Source: Klebsiella michiganensis
Lineage (GTDB): Bacteria > Pseudomonadota > Gammaproteobacteria > Enterobacterales > Enterobacteriaceae
Reading direction: 5' to 3'
Assembly (NCBI RefSeq): GCF_002925905.1
Contig: NZ_PRDB01000002.1
Location: 124,001 to 188,000, forward strand
DNA length: 64,000 nucleotides
Below, piece after piece: positions 50,642-58,400 of the stretch (positions are counted from its first letter, which is position 1; every line of letters begins with the position of its first letter). The position numbers were made by a program, and so were the translations under genes. Below the pieces are notes generated by a model. That model was given only the letters and a program-made list of their open reading frames with translations, made no database searches and was not told the origin of the DNA.

Positions 50642-50665
50642 CGTTATATATTTTAATATACAACG
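50642..50665 (+). promoter_or_regulatory. ModE-like operator upstream of FecCD-type ABC operon
   Basis: CGTTATATATTTTAATATACAACG: same length and arm layout as the E. coli modA ModE site (CGTTATAT-N8-ACATAACG, recalled). Confidence 0.65.
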
Positions 50666-50691
50666 ATTTTTCCTTTGCCGCTGAGCCCATC

Positions 50692-51750
50692 ATGTCCAGA
50701 CATCCGCGCGTTTTCTTTGCTATGGCGCTGTTAAGCGCCAGCCTGTTTGCCGGTCAGGCCTTTGCCGACCGCACCCTCACCGACCAGCTGGGTCGTGAAG
50801 TCACCCTCCCCGACCACGTCACCCGCGCCGTGGTGCTCCAGCATCAGACCTTAAACCTGCTGGTGCAGCTTAACGCCGCTGACGACGTCGTCGGCGTCAT
50901 GAGCAGCTGGAAAAAGCAGCTTGGCCCGCAGTTTGCGCGCTTTATGCCGGCTATTGAGACACTACCTATGCCGGGCGATCTGACGCAGGTCAATATCGAG
51001 AGCCTGCTGGCGCTGCATCCCCAGGTGGTGTTCGTTGCCAACTACGCGCCGCAGGCGATGATCCAGCAGATCCAGGACGCCGGGATCCCGGTGGTGGCAG
51101 TCTCTCTGCGCCAGGATGCCGCGGGTGAGAAAAACAAAATGAACCCGACGATGGCCGATGAAGAGCTGGCCTATAACGAGGGGCTGAAACAGGGGATCCG
51201 CCTGATTGGCGAAGTGGTCGGCCGTCAGGCTCAGGCCGAAGCGCTGATTCAATACACCTTCAGCGCGCGCAGGCTGGCTAACGCGCCGGTTGCCGATATC
51301 CCGGAAAACGAGCGGGTGCGGGTATATATGGCCAATCCGGACCTCAACACCTACGGCTCGGGCAAATATACCGGCCTGATGATGAAGCACGCCGGGGCGC
51401 TGAACGTTGCCGCCGCCAGCGTAAAGGGCGCGCGCCAGGTCTCGCTGGAGCAGGTGCTGCAGTGGGATCCGCAGGTGATTTTCGTACAGGACCGCTACCC
51501 GGAGGTGGTCAAACAGATACAAAACGACCCGCAGTGGCAGAGCATTGACGCGGTCAAAAATCACCGCGTGTGGCTGATGCCGGAATACGCCAAGGCCTGG
51601 GGCTACCCGATGCCGGAGGCGCTGGCGATCGGCGAGCTGTGGATGGCGAAAAAACTCTACCCCTCACGCTATAACAGCGTCGATGTCGAGGCGAAGGCGC
51701 GGGAGTACTATCAGCGTTTCTACCGCGTGAAGTGGACGCCGGATGCGTAG
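50692..51750 (+). CDS. Periplasmic binding protein, class III (BtuF/FecB/MolA-like)
   Basis: MSRHPRVFFAMALLSASLFAGQAFADRTLTDQLGREVTLPDHVTRAV signal peptide and SBP fold. Confidence 0.87.
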   Translation: MSRHPRVFFAMALLSASLFAGQAFADRTLTDQLGREVTLPDHVTRAVVLQHQTLNLLVQLNAADDVVGVMSSWKKQLGPQFARFMPAIETLPMPGDLTQVNIESLLALHPQVVFVANYAPQAMIQQIQDAGIPVVAVSLRQDAAGEKNKMNPTMADEELAYNEGLKQGIRLIGEVVGRQAQAEALIQYTFSARRLANAPVADIPENERVRVYMANPDLNTYGSGKYTGLMMKHAGALNVAAASVKGARQVSLEQVLQWDPQVIFVQDRYPEVVKQIQNDPQWQSIDAVKNHRVWLMPEYAKAWGYPMPEALAIGELWMAKKLYPSRYNSVDVEAKAREYYQRFYRVKWTPDA

Positions 51751-52747
51751 TCATCGTCATCCGGCCCTGCTGCAATGTACCCTCGCGCTGGTGACGATCG
51801 TGATTGCAATCGCTTCACTCTGCCTCGGGCAGTATCCGTTAAGCCTGGCGGAAGTTTTTCGCCAGCTGGCGCATCTTTCTCCCCTCGACGGCGTCGCCGG
51901 CCAGGTCGTGTGGTCGGTGCGGCTGCCGAGGATCGTGATGGCGCTGCTGGCCGGCGGCGCGCTGGGGCTATGCGGGGCCACCTTACAGGGCGTATTCCAG
52001 AATCCGCTGGTGGACCCGCATATCATCGGCGTCACCTCCGGTTCCGCCTTCGGCGGGACGCTGGCGATTCTGCTGGGGCTGAACGCCGCGCTGATGATGG
52101 CCTCGACCTTTCTCTTCGGCCTTGCCGCGCTGATGCTGGTCTATCTGATAGCCGCGCTGCAGGGGCGCGAAAGCACCCTGGTGCTGATCCTCTCAGGCAT
52201 TATCCTCAGCGGCTTTTTTGCCGCCCTGGTGAGCCTGATGCAGTACCTGGCCGATAGCGAAGAGACGCTGCCGAATATTGTTTTCTGGCTGCTCGGCAGC
52301 TTCGCCACCGCCAGCTGGCACAAAGTCCTGCTGATGGCGCTACCGGTAGCCTGCGCCGCGATGGTGCTGTTTAAGCTCCGCTGGCGGATTAACCTGCTGG
52401 CGCTGGAGGAGAAAGATGCCCGCGGTCTGGGGGTTGCGGTGACCGGGCTGCGTCGCGGGGTGCTGGTGTGCTGCGCGGTGCTGGTCGCCGCTCAGGTGGC
52501 GGTCAGCGGCAGCATCGCGTGGGTCGGGCTGGTGATCCCGCATCTGGCGCGGCTGCTGGCCGGCGCCGACCACCGGCGTCTTCTCCCTACCGCCTTCTGG
52601 CTCGGCGGCGGTTTTATGATCGTCGTCGATGACCTCGCCCGCACGCTGATCCAGGCCGAAATCCCCATTGGAATCATCACCGCGCTTCTTGGCGCGCCGC
52701 TGTTTACCTGGCTGCTGGTGCAGTCGCGACGCACAGGCGCGCGCTGA
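51743..52747 (+). CDS. FecCD/BtuC-family permease
   Basis: VRLPRIVMALLAGGALGLCGATLQGVFQNPLVDPHIIGVTSGSAFG. Confidence 0.9.
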   Translation: MRSHRHPALLQCTLALVTIVIAIASLCLGQYPLSLAEVFRQLAHLSPLDGVAGQVVWSVRLPRIVMALLAGGALGLCGATLQGVFQNPLVDPHIIGVTSGSAFGGTLAILLGLNAALMMASTFLFGLAALMLVYLIAALQGRESTLVLILSGIILSGFFAALVSLMQYLADSEETLPNIVFWLLGSFATASWHKVLLMALPVACAAMVLFKLRWRINLLALEEKDARGLGVAVTGLRRGVLVCCAVLVAAQVAVSGSIAWVGLVIPHLARLLAGADHRRLLPTAFWLGGGFMIVVDDLARTLIQAEIPIGIITALLGAPLFTWLLVQSRRTGAR

Positions 52748-53496
52748 TGACCCTTTCCCTACAGTTAAGCGACCTGCTCTACGGCCACAGCCGACCGCTG
52801 TTCGCACCGCTGAACCTGCAGTGCCGTTCCGGCGATATCTGGGCGGTGCTCGGCGCTAACGGCCGCGGCAAAAGCACTCTGCTCGATACCCTGACCGGCG
52901 TACTGACGCAGCTCGGCGGTGGGTTTACCTGCGCGGGCGGTCTCGCCATCGTGCCGCAGCATTTTCGCCCGGCTTTTGGCTGGCAGGTGCGCGACGTGGT
53001 GCTGATGGGACGGGCGCGCCACGTTAATCTGTTCGCTCAGCCAACAGCGGAAGACGAACGTGAGGTGCAGAAGGCGCTGGCGCAGCTGGGGATCGCGGCG
53101 CTGGCCGACAAGGCGTTTTGCGCGCTGTCCGGCGGCCAGCAGCAGCTGGTGCTTATCGCCAGGGCGCTGGTGGGCGCCAGCCAGAATATCCTGCTGGATG
53201 AACCCTGCTCGGCGCTGGATCTGGCCAATCAGCAGCTGGTGCTGCAGCTCATCAGCGACCTGGCCCATCGCCAGAAGCGGACGGTGCTGTTTACCACGCA
53301 CGATCCGACCCACGCCCTGCAGGTGGCGAACCAGACCTTGCTGCTGCTGCCCGACGGTGAATGGCTGGCGGGAGAATCAGCCGCCGTACTGACGGAAGCG
53401 AATCTTCAGCGCGCGTATGGTTTAGCGGTACGCAAAGTCCATCCCCCCGGGTCGGCGCTGCCGCTGCTGGCTCCGCAGTTTACGATTCGTCGCTGA
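52747..53496 (+). CDS. ABC transporter ATP-binding protein (BtuD/FecE/MolC-like)
   Basis: GANGRGKSTLLDTLTGV; LSGGQQQLVLIARALVGASQNILLDEPCSALD. Confidence 0.9.
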   Translation: MTLSLQLSDLLYGHSRPLFAPLNLQCRSGDIWAVLGANGRGKSTLLDTLTGVLTQLGGGFTCAGGLAIVPQHFRPAFGWQVRDVVLMGRARHVNLFAQPTAEDEREVQKALAQLGIAALADKAFCALSGGQQQLVLIARALVGASQNILLDEPCSALDLANQQLVLQLISDLAHRQKRTVLFTTHDPTHALQVANQTLLLLPDGEWLAGESAAVLTEANLQRAYGLAVRKVHPPGSALPLLAPQFTIRR

Positions 53497-54220
53497 TAGG
53501 CAAAAAACCGGCGTCTTTCAGTAAGCGCTGCCCCTCCGCGCCGAGGATAAAGCGGCACAGCCGCTGCGCCCCGGCGCTCTGTTCAATCTGCGCCAGCAGA
53601 TAGTCGCAGCGAACATTCCACGCCGGCGGAATAAGCTGCGTGCGCAGATCGCTGCACGCCGCCATCTGCGCGGCGTAGTGCGCATAGCCGATAAACAGGT
53701 CGGTTAAGTTTTCACGGATCAGCCACGCCCCGGCGATTTCTCCCGCCGGCACCGGCAGCGAGTCGCGGCCGCCTACCAGCGGACGCGCGCGCGCCATCAT
53801 GGCGGCGCCGACGCCGGGACAGCGCTCTTCAATGTGGGAGAAAAGCTGCCAGGTGTAGTCGCCTGAAGGGTCGCAGCCCGGCGTTGAGGTTGCCAGGCGT
53901 AGGTCCGGGTCGCTGAGCAGCGCCAGCCACTCCCGCGTCTCGGTTGTTGCGCCGCGGCGGGCGGTCAGCATCAGCTGATTCCGGGCGAACAGATAGCACG
54001 CCCCGGCCAGCCCGGCCTGACGCAGCGCCTGCGGATGTTGGCTATTGGCCGAGGCGAACACCGAGCACGGCTCTCCGCCCTCAATGCGCTCGCGCAGCAG
54101 CCCTGCCGGACCAAAATGGACCTCGACCGGGATGCCGGTCTGTTGCTGAAAGCGCGCCAGCAGCGGAATGAAAGCGCTTTTCAGGCTTCCCGCCGCCAGC
54201 AGCGTTAGGGAGGGAGTCAT
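53480..54220 (-). CDS. ModA-like (molybdate-type) binding protein lacking an obvious signal peptide
   Basis: MTPSLTLLAAGSLKSAFIPLLARFQQQTGIPVEVHFGPAGLLRERIEGGEPCSVFASAN: begins at the mature ModA fold. Confidence 0.75.
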   Translation of the reverse strand: MTPSLTLLAAGSLKSAFIPLLARFQQQTGIPVEVHFGPAGLLRERIEGGEPCSVFASANSQHPQALRQAGLAGACYLFARNQLMLTARRGATTETREWLALLSDPDLRLATSTPGCDPSGDYTWQLFSHIEERCPGVGAAMMARARPLVGGRDSLPVPAGEIAGAWLIRENLTDLFIGYAHYAAQMAACSDLRTQLIPPAWNVRCDYLLAQIEQSAGAQRLCRFILGAEGQRLLKDAGFLPISDES

Positions 54221-54229
54221 AAGAACCAT

Positions 54230-54253
54230 CGCTATATAGTCATAAATACAGCG
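54230..54253 (-). promoter_or_regulatory. ModE-like operator upstream of ModA-like gene
   Basis: CGCTATATAGTCATAAATACAGCG, same 24-bp layout as the site at 50642. Confidence 0.6.
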
Positions 54254-54279
54254 CTATAATAACGCAGGTTCAGGTCATT

Positions 54280-55116
54280 TCAGTAGCGAATTTCCGCCAG
54301 TTCGCGCAGCTGTTCCGGCGTCGCCACCGGCAGGTTAAAGAAGCGCAGATAGGCCGGGATCATTTCAAACAGCATGTCGGTGCCGCGCTGAATGGGGCAG
54401 CCCGCCGCCTGCGCCGCCTGCAGTAGCGGAGTGAACTCCTGGGCCATAACCACTTCACCGACAAAGGTGCCCGGCGTCAGGCGCTGCGGGTCCAGCGGCA
54501 GCGGATCGCCCTCTTTCATCCCCAGCGGCGTGGCGTTAACCACCAGATCGTGCCCCTGCGGATCGCGCTGCATCAGCGTAATGTCCAGCCGAGGATAGTG
54601 CTCAAGCAGACGCCCGGCCAGCGCTTCCGCCGTCTGCGAACAGATATCGTACAGCGTCAGGGCGCTGACGCCCGCCGCCGCCAGCGATGCGGCAATGGCC
54701 GAGCCGACGCCGCCGCTGCCCACCACCAGCGCCCGCGCCCCTCGCGTCTGGAAACCTTTACGCGTGATACCGAGGACAAAGCCTTCGCCATCAAACATAT
54801 CGCCGCTCAGCGTGCCGTCGGCTTCGGGACGGATCGCGTTACAGGCGCCCGCTATCGCCGCCGTTGGGCTAAGATGCTGCACCAGCCCGCAGGTGGCGAT
54901 TTTGTGCGGCATGGTGACCAGCGCGCCAATAATATTGGTCATCTTAAACAGCATCGGCACAAAGGCGGCGTAATCCTCAGGCTTGACGCCCATCGGCACC
55001 ACTTTGGCGTCAACCTGCTGATGAACCAACCACGGGTTGTAAATCATCGGCGCTTTAAACTTCGCGGTCGGATAGCCAAGATGCGCTATCAGCCGCGTAT
55101 TTCCACTAATCACCAT
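54280..55116 (-). CDS. Shikimate/quinate dehydrogenase family (AroE/YdiB-like)
   Basis: MVISGNTRLIAHLGYPTAKFKAPMIYNPW...ALVVGSGGVGSAIAASLAAAGVSALTLYD; VNATPLGMKEGDPLPLD. Confidence 0.87.
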   Translation of the reverse strand: MVISGNTRLIAHLGYPTAKFKAPMIYNPWLVHQQVDAKVVPMGVKPEDYAAFVPMLFKMTNIIGALVTMPHKIATCGLVQHLSPTAAIAGACNAIRPEADGTLSGDMFDGEGFVLGITRKGFQTRGARALVVGSGGVGSAIAASLAAAGVSALTLYDICSQTAEALAGRLLEHYPRLDITLMQRDPQGHDLVVNATPLGMKEGDPLPLDPQRLTPGTFVGEVVMAQEFTPLLQAAQAAGCPIQRGTDMLFEMIPAYLRFFNLPVATPEQLRELAEIRY

Positions 55117-55147
55117 TCCCTGCTCCTTTAACAACGACTGCATCACG

Positions 55148-56467
55148 TTACTGCGAAAGTTCGATACGCTTGACATCGCCCAGGATAAAGACATAAGCCG
55201 CCACGCCCAGCAGCGCTGCGCCGCCGATATAAATCAGCGCGTAAAAGAAGTTGCCGGAGGCGGCAACAATGAAACCGATAATCAGCGGCGTCAGGATCCC
55301 GGCGAGGTTAGCGCAGAAGTTAAACAGGCCGCCGGTCAGACCGCCAAGGCCTTTCGGCGCGATGTCGGAGATCAACGTCCAGCCCAGCCCGACCATCCCC
55401 TGACCAAAAAAGGCGAACGACATCACCAGAATTACCGCCAGATCGCTGGTCAGCCAGTTGGCGGAGATAATGGTGCTCGCCATCAGCAGACCGGCAATGA
55501 TCGGCAGCTTACGCCCGAGGTTCGCCGAGCCGGTGGCCTTCAGCAGCTTATCGGAGACCCAGCCGCCGAACATCACGCCGCCCGCCGCCGCCAGAAACGG
55601 CATGATGGCGAAGAAGCCGACCTTAATCCACGGCATATGGCGCTCGGTGGCCAGATAGGTTGGAAACCAGGTCAGGAAGAAGACCAGCACCGTATTACCG
55701 GCAAACTGCCCGATGCTGGCGCCGAGAATCTGCCGTTTCGCCAGCAGCTGGCGGATCAGCGGCCAGCTAAAGGCGGTATGCTGCTCTGCGCCGGTGGACA
55801 TTCCGCCGCCGTTGACGATGTGCTCGCGCTCCAGCTGATTGAGGTGTTTATCCTCATGCGGCTCGCGATAGCAGCGCCACCACACCAGCGCGAACATCAC
55901 GCCGGCGGCGCCGACGCTAATAAACAGCGCGCGCCAGCCAAAGCTGCCCATTATCCAGAACAGCAGCGGCGCAAAACAGGCCAGCCCGAGATATTCGCCG
56001 ACGGTATAGACCGCCGTCGCCTTAGCGCGCTCCTGCTGCGGGAACCAGGCGCTCACCACCCGGCTGTTCACCGGGAAACAGGGGGCTTCGCTGACGCCGA
56101 GGCCAAAACGGCACAGCAGCAGGGTTTTCAGGCCGACCGCCAGGCCGTGGAACATGGTGAATAGCGACCACAGGGTCAGCGCCAGAAAATAGGTGACTTT
56201 ATTACCGAAGCGGTCAAGGAAGATGCCGCCGGGGATCTGCGCCAGCGCGTAGGTCCAGGCAAAGGCGGAGAATACGATGCCCATCATCGCGGCATCAATA
56301 CCCAGCTCTGCGGTCAGCTGCGGCGCGGCAATCCCCAGCACCGTGCGGTCGAGATAGTTGATCATGGTGCCGACCGCCAGCAGCGCAAGGATACCGATAC
56401 GCCGCCGGGAAGGCCGCGCGCCGGACGCGGCGGCGGCCGTCGTGTGATTATGGCTATAAGAGTTCAT
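55148..56467 (-). CDS. MFS transporter, anion:cation symporter type
   Basis: GTMINYLDRTVLGIAAPQLTAELGIDAAMMGIVFSAFAWTYALAQIPGGIFLDRFG. Confidence 0.88.
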   Translation of the reverse strand: MNSYSHNHTTAAAASGARPSRRRIGILALLAVGTMINYLDRTVLGIAAPQLTAELGIDAAMMGIVFSAFAWTYALAQIPGGIFLDRFGNKVTYFLALTLWSLFTMFHGLAVGLKTLLLCRFGLGVSEAPCFPVNSRVVSAWFPQQERAKATAVYTVGEYLGLACFAPLLFWIMGSFGWRALFISVGAAGVMFALVWWRCYREPHEDKHLNQLEREHIVNGGGMSTGAEQHTAFSWPLIRQLLAKRQILGASIGQFAGNTVLVFFLTWFPTYLATERHMPWIKVGFFAIMPFLAAAGGVMFGGWVSDKLLKATGSANLGRKLPIIAGLLMASTIISANWLTSDLAVILVMSFAFFGQGMVGLGWTLISDIAPKGLGGLTGGLFNFCANLAGILTPLIIGFIVAASGNFFYALIYIGGAALLGVAAYVFILGDVKRIELSQ

Positions 56468-56546
56468 AGTCGTTTCCTGTCATAGGGTACAGCCGGATGT
56501 TGTTATTGTGTTTGCGACGTTGGGTTGTGAACCATTTGCTACATTA

Positions 56547-58400
56547 CTAGGTGTACTGCATTGCTGACAAGCGTACAGCTGCATTTACAGCACCATAAAG
56601 TGCGTAACCGTTGCGCCGCTCGGTCAGTTCAAAGAAAAAGCGTCCGGCAGAAAACGGGCGGGTATATAGGTGCAGGAATTCACCGCCGCTTCCGTCACGA
56701 TCGTAAAGAATTTGATGATTCTTCAGCAGGTTGACCTGAACATCCTCGCCAAAACGGGCCAACAGATCTTCATAGTAGTTCGCCGGGATCGGCAGCGCGT
56801 TGACCGCAACCGGAGCCAGGCTGGCGAGCGTGGAGGGTAAATCGTGGCAGGCAAACGCCGCGTGCTGTAAACCTGCTCCCTGATAACAGGCTACCGAACG
56901 GGCAATTTGCGTGGCGCGGCTTTGCGAAATATTGAGCGCGAGACGAATGTCGCCCTGCGGACTGCGCACCGCCAGGCTGCGCACCAGCCCGTAAGGATCG
57001 GGCAGGGTCTGCTCATGTTCGAGCGTAAAGCCGAATACGGTGCGGAAAAAGATAATCCAGTTATCGCGGCTGTCCGCTTCCATGCCGAGTGCCAGGTGAT
57101 CGATACCCCGATAATCGTCGCGCGGCGTGACGTTCGCGCGCAGATGAAAATCGCGGGTGTAGATATCGTCCCCCATCTCAATCAGATAAATAAGGCTGCC
57201 GTCCGGGGCGCAAACCGCCGGGATGGGGCTTTCGTTCGGCCCGGCATCGCCCTGCCAGGTGGCGTAGCCTAAGGCGCGGGCGCGTTCCACGATCGCCGCG
57301 CTCTGGCTGACGCGCAGCGCCATGGCGCAGAGGGAAACCCCGTGGCGCTGGTGAAAATGATCGGCCCAGCTATGCGGCTGGGCGTTAACCACCACCCTCG
57401 CCCCGCCGTTGCGCCAGAGGGCGACGCGTTTTGAGCGATGCGTCCCCTCTTCGGCAAAGCCGAGCTGCGTCAGCCTGTGTCCGAGTTCGCCCGCCTGCGC
57501 CGGCGTGGCGGCAAACTCGATAAACTCCAGCCCGGCGTAGAGGGGCAGTTCAGCGGAGGAAAACAGCGGCGCCCGGCTTTCCGGCAGCCGCTGACGGACC
57601 TGCTCTTCCAGCCACAGCAGCGAGCGATAGCCATCTTTCGCCGTCGCGCCGTTGGGCGATGCGCGGAAGCTGTCGTTAAAGATCTCCAGCGACCAGGGGC
57701 CGCAGTAGCCGCGGCGGGTAAGATCGCAGGCAAACTCCACCAGCGGCAGCTGCCCCTGGCCGGGAAAACAGCGGAAGTGGCGGCTCCATTCGAGAATATC
57801 CATTTTCATCAGCGGCGCGTCGGCCATCTGTACAAAGGTGATTTTTTCCAGCGGCACATCCGCCAGCTGCGCCAGCGTATCGCCGCGCGCCAGCACGTGG
57901 AAACTGTCGAGCACGATGCCCAGCGCCGGGCTATCGACGCTTTTGACCCGCGCCCACGCCTGATGCCAGCGGTTGACGTGGGTGCCCCAGGCCAGCGCCT
58001 CGTAGCCAATCGTGATGCGTTCCTGCTCCGCCAGCGCAGCAAGGGCGCGTAAGTCGGCGACCTGCAGCTCGACATCGGCGGAACAGTCCGGCTGAACGTT
58101 GCTGCACAGCAGCAGGGTGTCGCAGCCCAGCTCGTGCATAAGCGCAAATTTGCGCCTGGCGCGTTCCATGTTGGCGGCAAACTGGGCGCGGCTGGCGCCT
58201 TCAAAATCACGAAATGGTTGAAAAAGCGTGATTTTTAGTCCTAAATCTGCCGCCAGGTGGCGGATATCGGCCGGCGTACCGGTATAATAGAGCAGATCGT
58301 TTTCGAAGATTTCGACGCCCTGATAGCCCGCCGCTGCGATGGCATGGAGCTTTTCGGGTAAGGTACCGGAGATCGAGACGGTGGCGATGGAACGCAACAT
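56547..58400 (-). CDS. quiC: 3-dehydroshikimate dehydratase QuiC-type fused to HPPD-like domain
   Basis: N-terminal TIM-barrel (MLRSIATVSISGTLPEKLHAIAAAGYQGVEIFENDLLYYTGTP), C-terminal VOC/HPPD-like (GIDHLALGMEADSRDNWIIFFRTVFGF). Confidence 0.85.
   Translation of the reverse strand: MLRSIATVSISGTLPEKLHAIAAAGYQGVEIFENDLLYYTGTPADIRHLAADLGLKITLFQPFRDFEGASRAQFAANMERARRKFALMHELGCDTLLLCSNVQPDCSADVELQVADLRALAALAEQERITIGYEALAWGTHVNRWHQAWARVKSVDSPALGIVLDSFHVLARGDTLAQLADVPLEKITFVQMADAPLMKMDILEWSRHFRCFPGQGQLPLVEFACDLTRRGYCGPWSLEIFNDSFRASPNGATAKDGYRSLLWLEEQVRQRLPESRAPLFSSAELPLYAGLEFIEFAATPAQAGELGHRLTQLGFAEEGTHRSKRVALWRNGGARVVVNAQPHSWADHFHQRHGVSLCAMALRVSQSAAIVERARALGYATWQGDAGPNESPIPAVCAPDGSLIYLIEMGDDIYTRDFHLRANVTPRDDYRGIDHLALGMEADSRDNWIIFFRTVFGFTLEHEQTLPDPYGLVRSLAVRSPQGDIRLALNISQSRATQIARSVACYQGAGLQHAAFACHDLPSTLASLAPVAVNALPIPANYYEDLLARFGEDVQVNLLKNHQILYDRDGSGGEFLHLYTRPFSAGRFFFELTERRNGYALYGAVNAAVRLSAMQYT

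Follow-up and report, generated by a model that had tools for sequence, protein, structure and literature searches.

The mol locus of this Klebsiella michiganensis contig very probably forms a second molybdate/tungstate uptake unit that is repressed by ModE and that includes a cytoplasmic ModA-like protein. The locus lies within a window of 64,000 nucleotides, which is the whole stretch of DNA that was analysed. The operon consists of three genes on the forward strand. The first, molA (50692..51750), encodes a class III substrate-binding protein (SBP) with an apparent signal peptide and a Pfam Peripla_BP_2 match, the second, molB (51743..52747), encodes a FecCD-type permease (Pfam FecCD), and the third, molC (52747..53496), encodes an ATPase (ABC_tran). 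The gene for the ModA-like protein (Pfam SBP_bac_11; working name 'ModL') is located on the reverse strand at 53480..54229 and is convergent with molC. A 3' overlap of about 17 bp between these two genes had been claimed in an earlier note on this DNA, and the end of molC at 53496 and of the opposing frame at 53480 give exactly 17 bp. The same genome features modE beside modA, with a TIGR00637 match above the cut-off. Because modE and modAB are also present, molABC represents a second system.

ModE-type sites and their conservation

Two 24-bp ModE-type sites are located at the outer ends of the locus. Site 1 (CGTTATATATTTTAATATACAACG, 50642..50665, forward strand) lies 26 bp upstream of the molA ATG, and site 2 (CGCTATATAGTCATAAATACAGCG, 54230..54253, forward strand) abuts the first ATG of the ModA-like gene, which is transcribed on the reverse strand. 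The earlier note had placed such sites at 50642 and 54230 and compared them to a ModE operator. The coordinates are exact, and both sites match the consensus core, site 1 with one mismatch and site 2 with two. The E. coli ModE consensus used for this comparison, ATCGNTATATA-N6-TATATANCGAT, is the one printed in PMC545781 and was chosen to avoid circularity; the scan core taken from it is CGNTATATA-N6-TATATANCG. Across all 32 contigs of the genome (6.19 Mb) the core occurs at no more than six places with up to two mismatches, which are moaA (0), dmsA (1), site 1 (1), modA (2), site 2 (2), and an unrelated place (2). The matches at moaA, dmsA, and modA were assigned by their neighbouring ORFs. 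The mismatch count of site 2 equals that of the modA operator in the same genome.

A looser pattern, CGYTATATWN6WAYAYARCG, has just four exact matches in the whole genome, namely modA, dmsA, site 1, and site 2. Exact matches to this pattern were found in 20 of 20 genomes of the genus, and the reversed pattern, used as a control, gave none. The 23 loci checked from the genus search consist of modA (5), dmsA (4), molA (2), the ModA-like gene (1, L218), a second SBP operon (3), and a yghX-yghU-like interval (8). A weight-matrix scan, which the earlier note had proposed as a check, was done with a matrix trained on 15 modA/dmsA/moaA-type sites without sites 1 and 2; 8 of the 15 were confirmed by neighbouring genes and the rest were accepted because of their sequence resemblance. 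Sites 1 and 2 are by far the two highest-scoring places in the window, at 30.4 and 18.4 bits; the next one reaches 6.8 bits, and the best score among 20 Markov-random windows is 8.7. From their sequence we infer that sites 1 and 2 are operators bound and controlled by ModE.

The operator at molA is widely conserved. A ModE-type site with at most two mismatches is located upstream of molA in all 80 named Enterobacterales loci, which span Klebsiella, Raoultella, Kluyvera, Citrobacter, Kosakonia, Buttiauxella, Pectobacterium, Serratia, Rahnella, and others, while shuffles of the same upstream stretches reach this threshold in 0 of 1600 cases. The arms of site 1 are conserved in the alignment. A separate family of small genomes features a perfect molA site in 7 of 8. 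In another family, probably Pasteurellaceae (the name is a guess), the molA sites are degenerate with 1–4 mismatches, and ModE control is therefore less sure there. A molA relative is also found in some E. coli strains. In the one strain examined, molA is paired with a ModA-like gene and diverges from the permease and ATPase genes, and a ModE-type site with two mismatches is located between the divergent pairs. Class-wide, MolA was found in 1 of 369 sampled genomes, a sampling too thin to show where the protein occurs. No consensus promoter over site 1 emerged from a sigma-70 scan.

Conservation of site 2 is limited to K. oxytoca, K. spallanzanii, K. indica, and some relatives; Raoultella and Kluyvera have a decayed version, and Citrobacter and others have no such site. 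The earlier note had taken loss of the two sites from orthologous loci as evidence against its reading. Such loss is not what is found for site 1, which is present at all 80 loci, but site 2 is kept in part of Klebsiella only. A ModE site as a constant feature of the ModA-like gene was considered and rejected, since most relatives do not have one. Immediately upstream of site 2 is a candidate promoter for the ModA-like gene, CTGAAA-16-TATTAT (54256..54283, reverse strand). This element matches 9 of 12 consensus positions in a consensus scan in which shuffles give 0.1, and its AT-rich -10 region is conserved in the alignment. Repression by Mo-loaded ModE would fit both the distance of site 1 from the molA start and the position of site 2, which has the candidate promoter on one side and the ATG on the other.

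Additional ModE-type sites precede other genes in the genomes that were searched. A ModE-type palindrome precedes a class III SBP operon (L166:6621-13792, also L165 and L167; SBP loci L203-L209) that consists of an SBP, a FecCD permease, an ATPase, a SAM methyltransferase, a ModD homolog (TIGR01334), and a TonB-dependent receptor, and is followed by a MOSC protein. The site features 0–1 mismatches in 7 of 7 such SBP loci from different genera. The operon is a candidate for ModE-controlled TonB/ABC uptake of a molybdenum or tungsten complex, and its SBP was not found in the genome of the window. In a second arrangement (L233:3055-6336, L234:6984-10262) a ModE-type site is followed by a TonB-dependent receptor and a MolA-like SBP with ~27–30% identity to MolA, with no permease of its own. 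Neither TonB-receptor class III system has a matching exact site in the genome of the window, and both look more novel than the mol finding itself. Exact ModE-type sites also recur in the genus at ~1501-1524 of L211, L212, L214, L220, L222, L225, L228, and L229, between dienelactone-hydrolase-like and glutathione-transferase-like genes, which we take to correspond to the yghX and yghU types of E. coli; we know of no molybdenum link for this interval. Another ModE-type site (L236:5057-8476) is located upstream of a formate-dehydrogenase-like gene (FdhF/YdeP-type) that is followed by an fdhD-like gene, both named by eye.

The ModA-like protein

The ModA-like gene is found at 75 of the 80 mol loci, and three of the five loci without it are cut off by the end of the contig. 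The gene is convergent with the operon at 50 loci, is the last gene of the molABC operon at 15, and lies directly behind molA without adjacent molBC at 10. These last ten are Rahnella/Ewingella-type loci (L120-L128, L131), and a search of six such genomes gave no close molB elsewhere, the best match being 36–43% identical. The Rahnella/Ewingella loci indicate that the link of the ModA-like gene to molA is as strong as its link to the permease. On its other side, the window features shikimate dehydrogenase-like, MFS transporter, and QuiC-like 3-dehydroshikimate dehydratase genes (54280-58400), which suggests a quinate/shikimate catabolic cluster beside mol.

The AlphaFold2 model of the ModA-like protein shows a ModA fold with a pLDDT of 96. 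The best Foldseek matches of the model are ModA-family structures with an E of 1e-18, and the TM score to 7tav, 4rxl, and 1wod is ~0.77 at ~20% sequence identity to ModA structures. PDB matches to SAKe repeat designs are regarded as artefacts and were set aside. The NCBIfam model for molybdate ABC transporter SBPs, PRK03537, gives the ModA-like protein its best score of 259.7 bits, which is below the cut-off of 288. Residues A12-L16, P41, G43, L45, D120-P121, G123-Y125, G153, and Y182 are invariant in 38 diverse orthologs and are located where ModA binds its ligand. The ligand residues of E. coli ModA are presumably Ser12, Ser39, and Tyr170. Of these, Ser12 and Tyr170 correspond to the invariant S15 and Y182, and the Ser39 position is occupied by Ala or Gly. 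Because this second ligand serine is replaced, the ligand of the ModA-like protein is not certain.

No signal peptide is visible in any of the 75 mol-linked orthologs when their frames are inspected by eye, and the protein is thus probably cytoplasmic. The frame in the window is open for just 8 codons before the first ATG, and the frames of many orthologs likewise close a few codons upstream of the start. The earlier note had described an accessory oxyanion binder; the ModA-like identity is upheld by the fold, and a periplasmic accessory role is unlikely given that every mol-linked ortholog is without a visible signal peptide. An ordinary periplasmic second SBP that serves MolBC or ModBC and is exported in a way not yet recognised is accordingly an improbable reading, even though the ModA fold, the annotation 'molybdate ABC transporter substrate-binding protein', and the classical leaders of distant relatives located away from mol (L140, L142) favour it; to our knowledge there is no export route for such a leaderless protein. 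The leaders of L140 and L142 indicate that leader loss in the mol-linked proteins may be derived. There is still less chance that the gene, after losing its leader, is carried along in a neutral or decaying state, with site 2 as a relic. The loss or decay of site 2 in most relatives would agree with this, but the frame is intact, the pocket-region motifs are invariant across the diverse orthologs, the gene is located inside the mol operon in several lineages, and the predicted fold is confident.

A cytoplasmic ModA-like protein would most likely be a buffer or carrier for incoming molybdate/tungstate. A more specific proposal, which is plausible but tentative, is that an SBP fold, having lost its signal for export, has turned into a dedicated intracellular receptor or carrier for the oxyanion imported by Mol. 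Within the same tentative proposal molybdate/tungstate might be buffered or passed on, and the gene itself might be repressed by Mo-ModE. If true, an intracellular ModA-like receptor would add a new type of component, next to the molbindins, to the molybdenum homeostasis of bacteria.

The molABC operon and the proposed mechanism

By its sequence the operon is MolABC. MolA is 62% identical to H. influenzae MolA, HI_1472 (PDB 3psa/3psh), over the mature protein (E 1.1e-138). The best solved relative of the permease is HI1471 (PDB 2nq2 chain A, E 6.8e-97), and HI1470 (PDB 2nq2 chain C, E 1.5e-54) is the sole solved relative of the ATPase at E<1e-30. For all three proteins the H. influenzae Mol subunits are far ahead of any other solved protein. 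The earlier note had argued for a MolABC-type importer that sequence alone would label iron or B12, and both parts agree with these results: the three subunits are best matched by Mol, the molA site is kept throughout the 80 loci, and generic family models do give iron/B12. The public records name these genes 'ABC transporter substrate-binding protein', 'iron ABC transporter permease', and 'substrate-binding domain-containing protein'. An importer of iron-siderophore, heme, or cobalamin, with palindromes that are incidental or belong to another regulator, has very little probability, since the generic FecCD, Peripla_BP_2, and BtuC matches and the public iron annotation are set against NCBIfam iron/B12 models that fall far below their cut-offs on the operon, the wide margin of the Mol relatives, and conserved upstream operators of the type common to modA, dmsA, and moaA. 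The six-site consensus scan, the Mol relatives, and the conservation of the molA site together support a second ModE-controlled importer. The molybdate versus tungstate specificity of MolA is a prediction from its relatives.

In the proposed mechanism MolA would bind the oxyanion in the periplasm and hand it over to the MolBC importer, which is BtuCD-type. When cytoplasmic molybdate is plentiful, Mo-loaded ModE would occupy site 1 and shut the molABC operon. Separately, Mo-ModE would bind site 2, which lies between the start codon and the candidate promoter, and shut the convergent ModA-like gene.

Comparison with known systems

MolABC is itself a system that is already known. The H. influenzae MolABC (HI1472-HI1470) is a low-affinity molybdate/tungstate importer, and Mol carries molybdate in vivo (PMC4031551). 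The H. influenzae molB is repressed 10-fold by molybdate, for which Rice et al. 2014 invoked an 'unknown factor' (PMC4031551). A simple candidate for this factor is offered by the conserved ModE operator at molA. The H. influenzae mol cluster also features a ModA-like gene, HI1469 (PMC4031551, PMC3928620), which was deleted together with mol in a mutant that lacks HI1469-HI1473, so that its role was not separated (PMC4031551). The two systems are thus alike in their subunits and in the ModA-like gene of the cluster. The present locus differs in the near-consensus ModE operator ahead of molA and in the convergent orientation of the ModA-like gene, which has a ModE site of its own; the H. influenzae cluster additionally has modD, salX, and cysU (PMC3928620).

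The present results correct a widespread 'iron transporter' label, offer a candidate repressor of molABC under abundant molybdate, and bring to light a conserved, apparently cytoplasmic ModA-like protein. Molybdoenzymes matter in the anaerobic respiration of gut Enterobacteriaceae. The ModA-like protein shares with ModA and PRK03537 the fold and presumably part of the ligand motif, but it differs from ModA in its lack of a visible signal peptide, its low identity, the unconserved Ser39 position, and scores below the PRK03537 cut-offs. The E. coli/Klebsiella ModE regulon (modABC, moaA, dmsA) uses the same 24-bp operator, and modE and the classical targets are present in this genome; compared with that regulon, molABC and the ModA-like gene are additional predicted targets.
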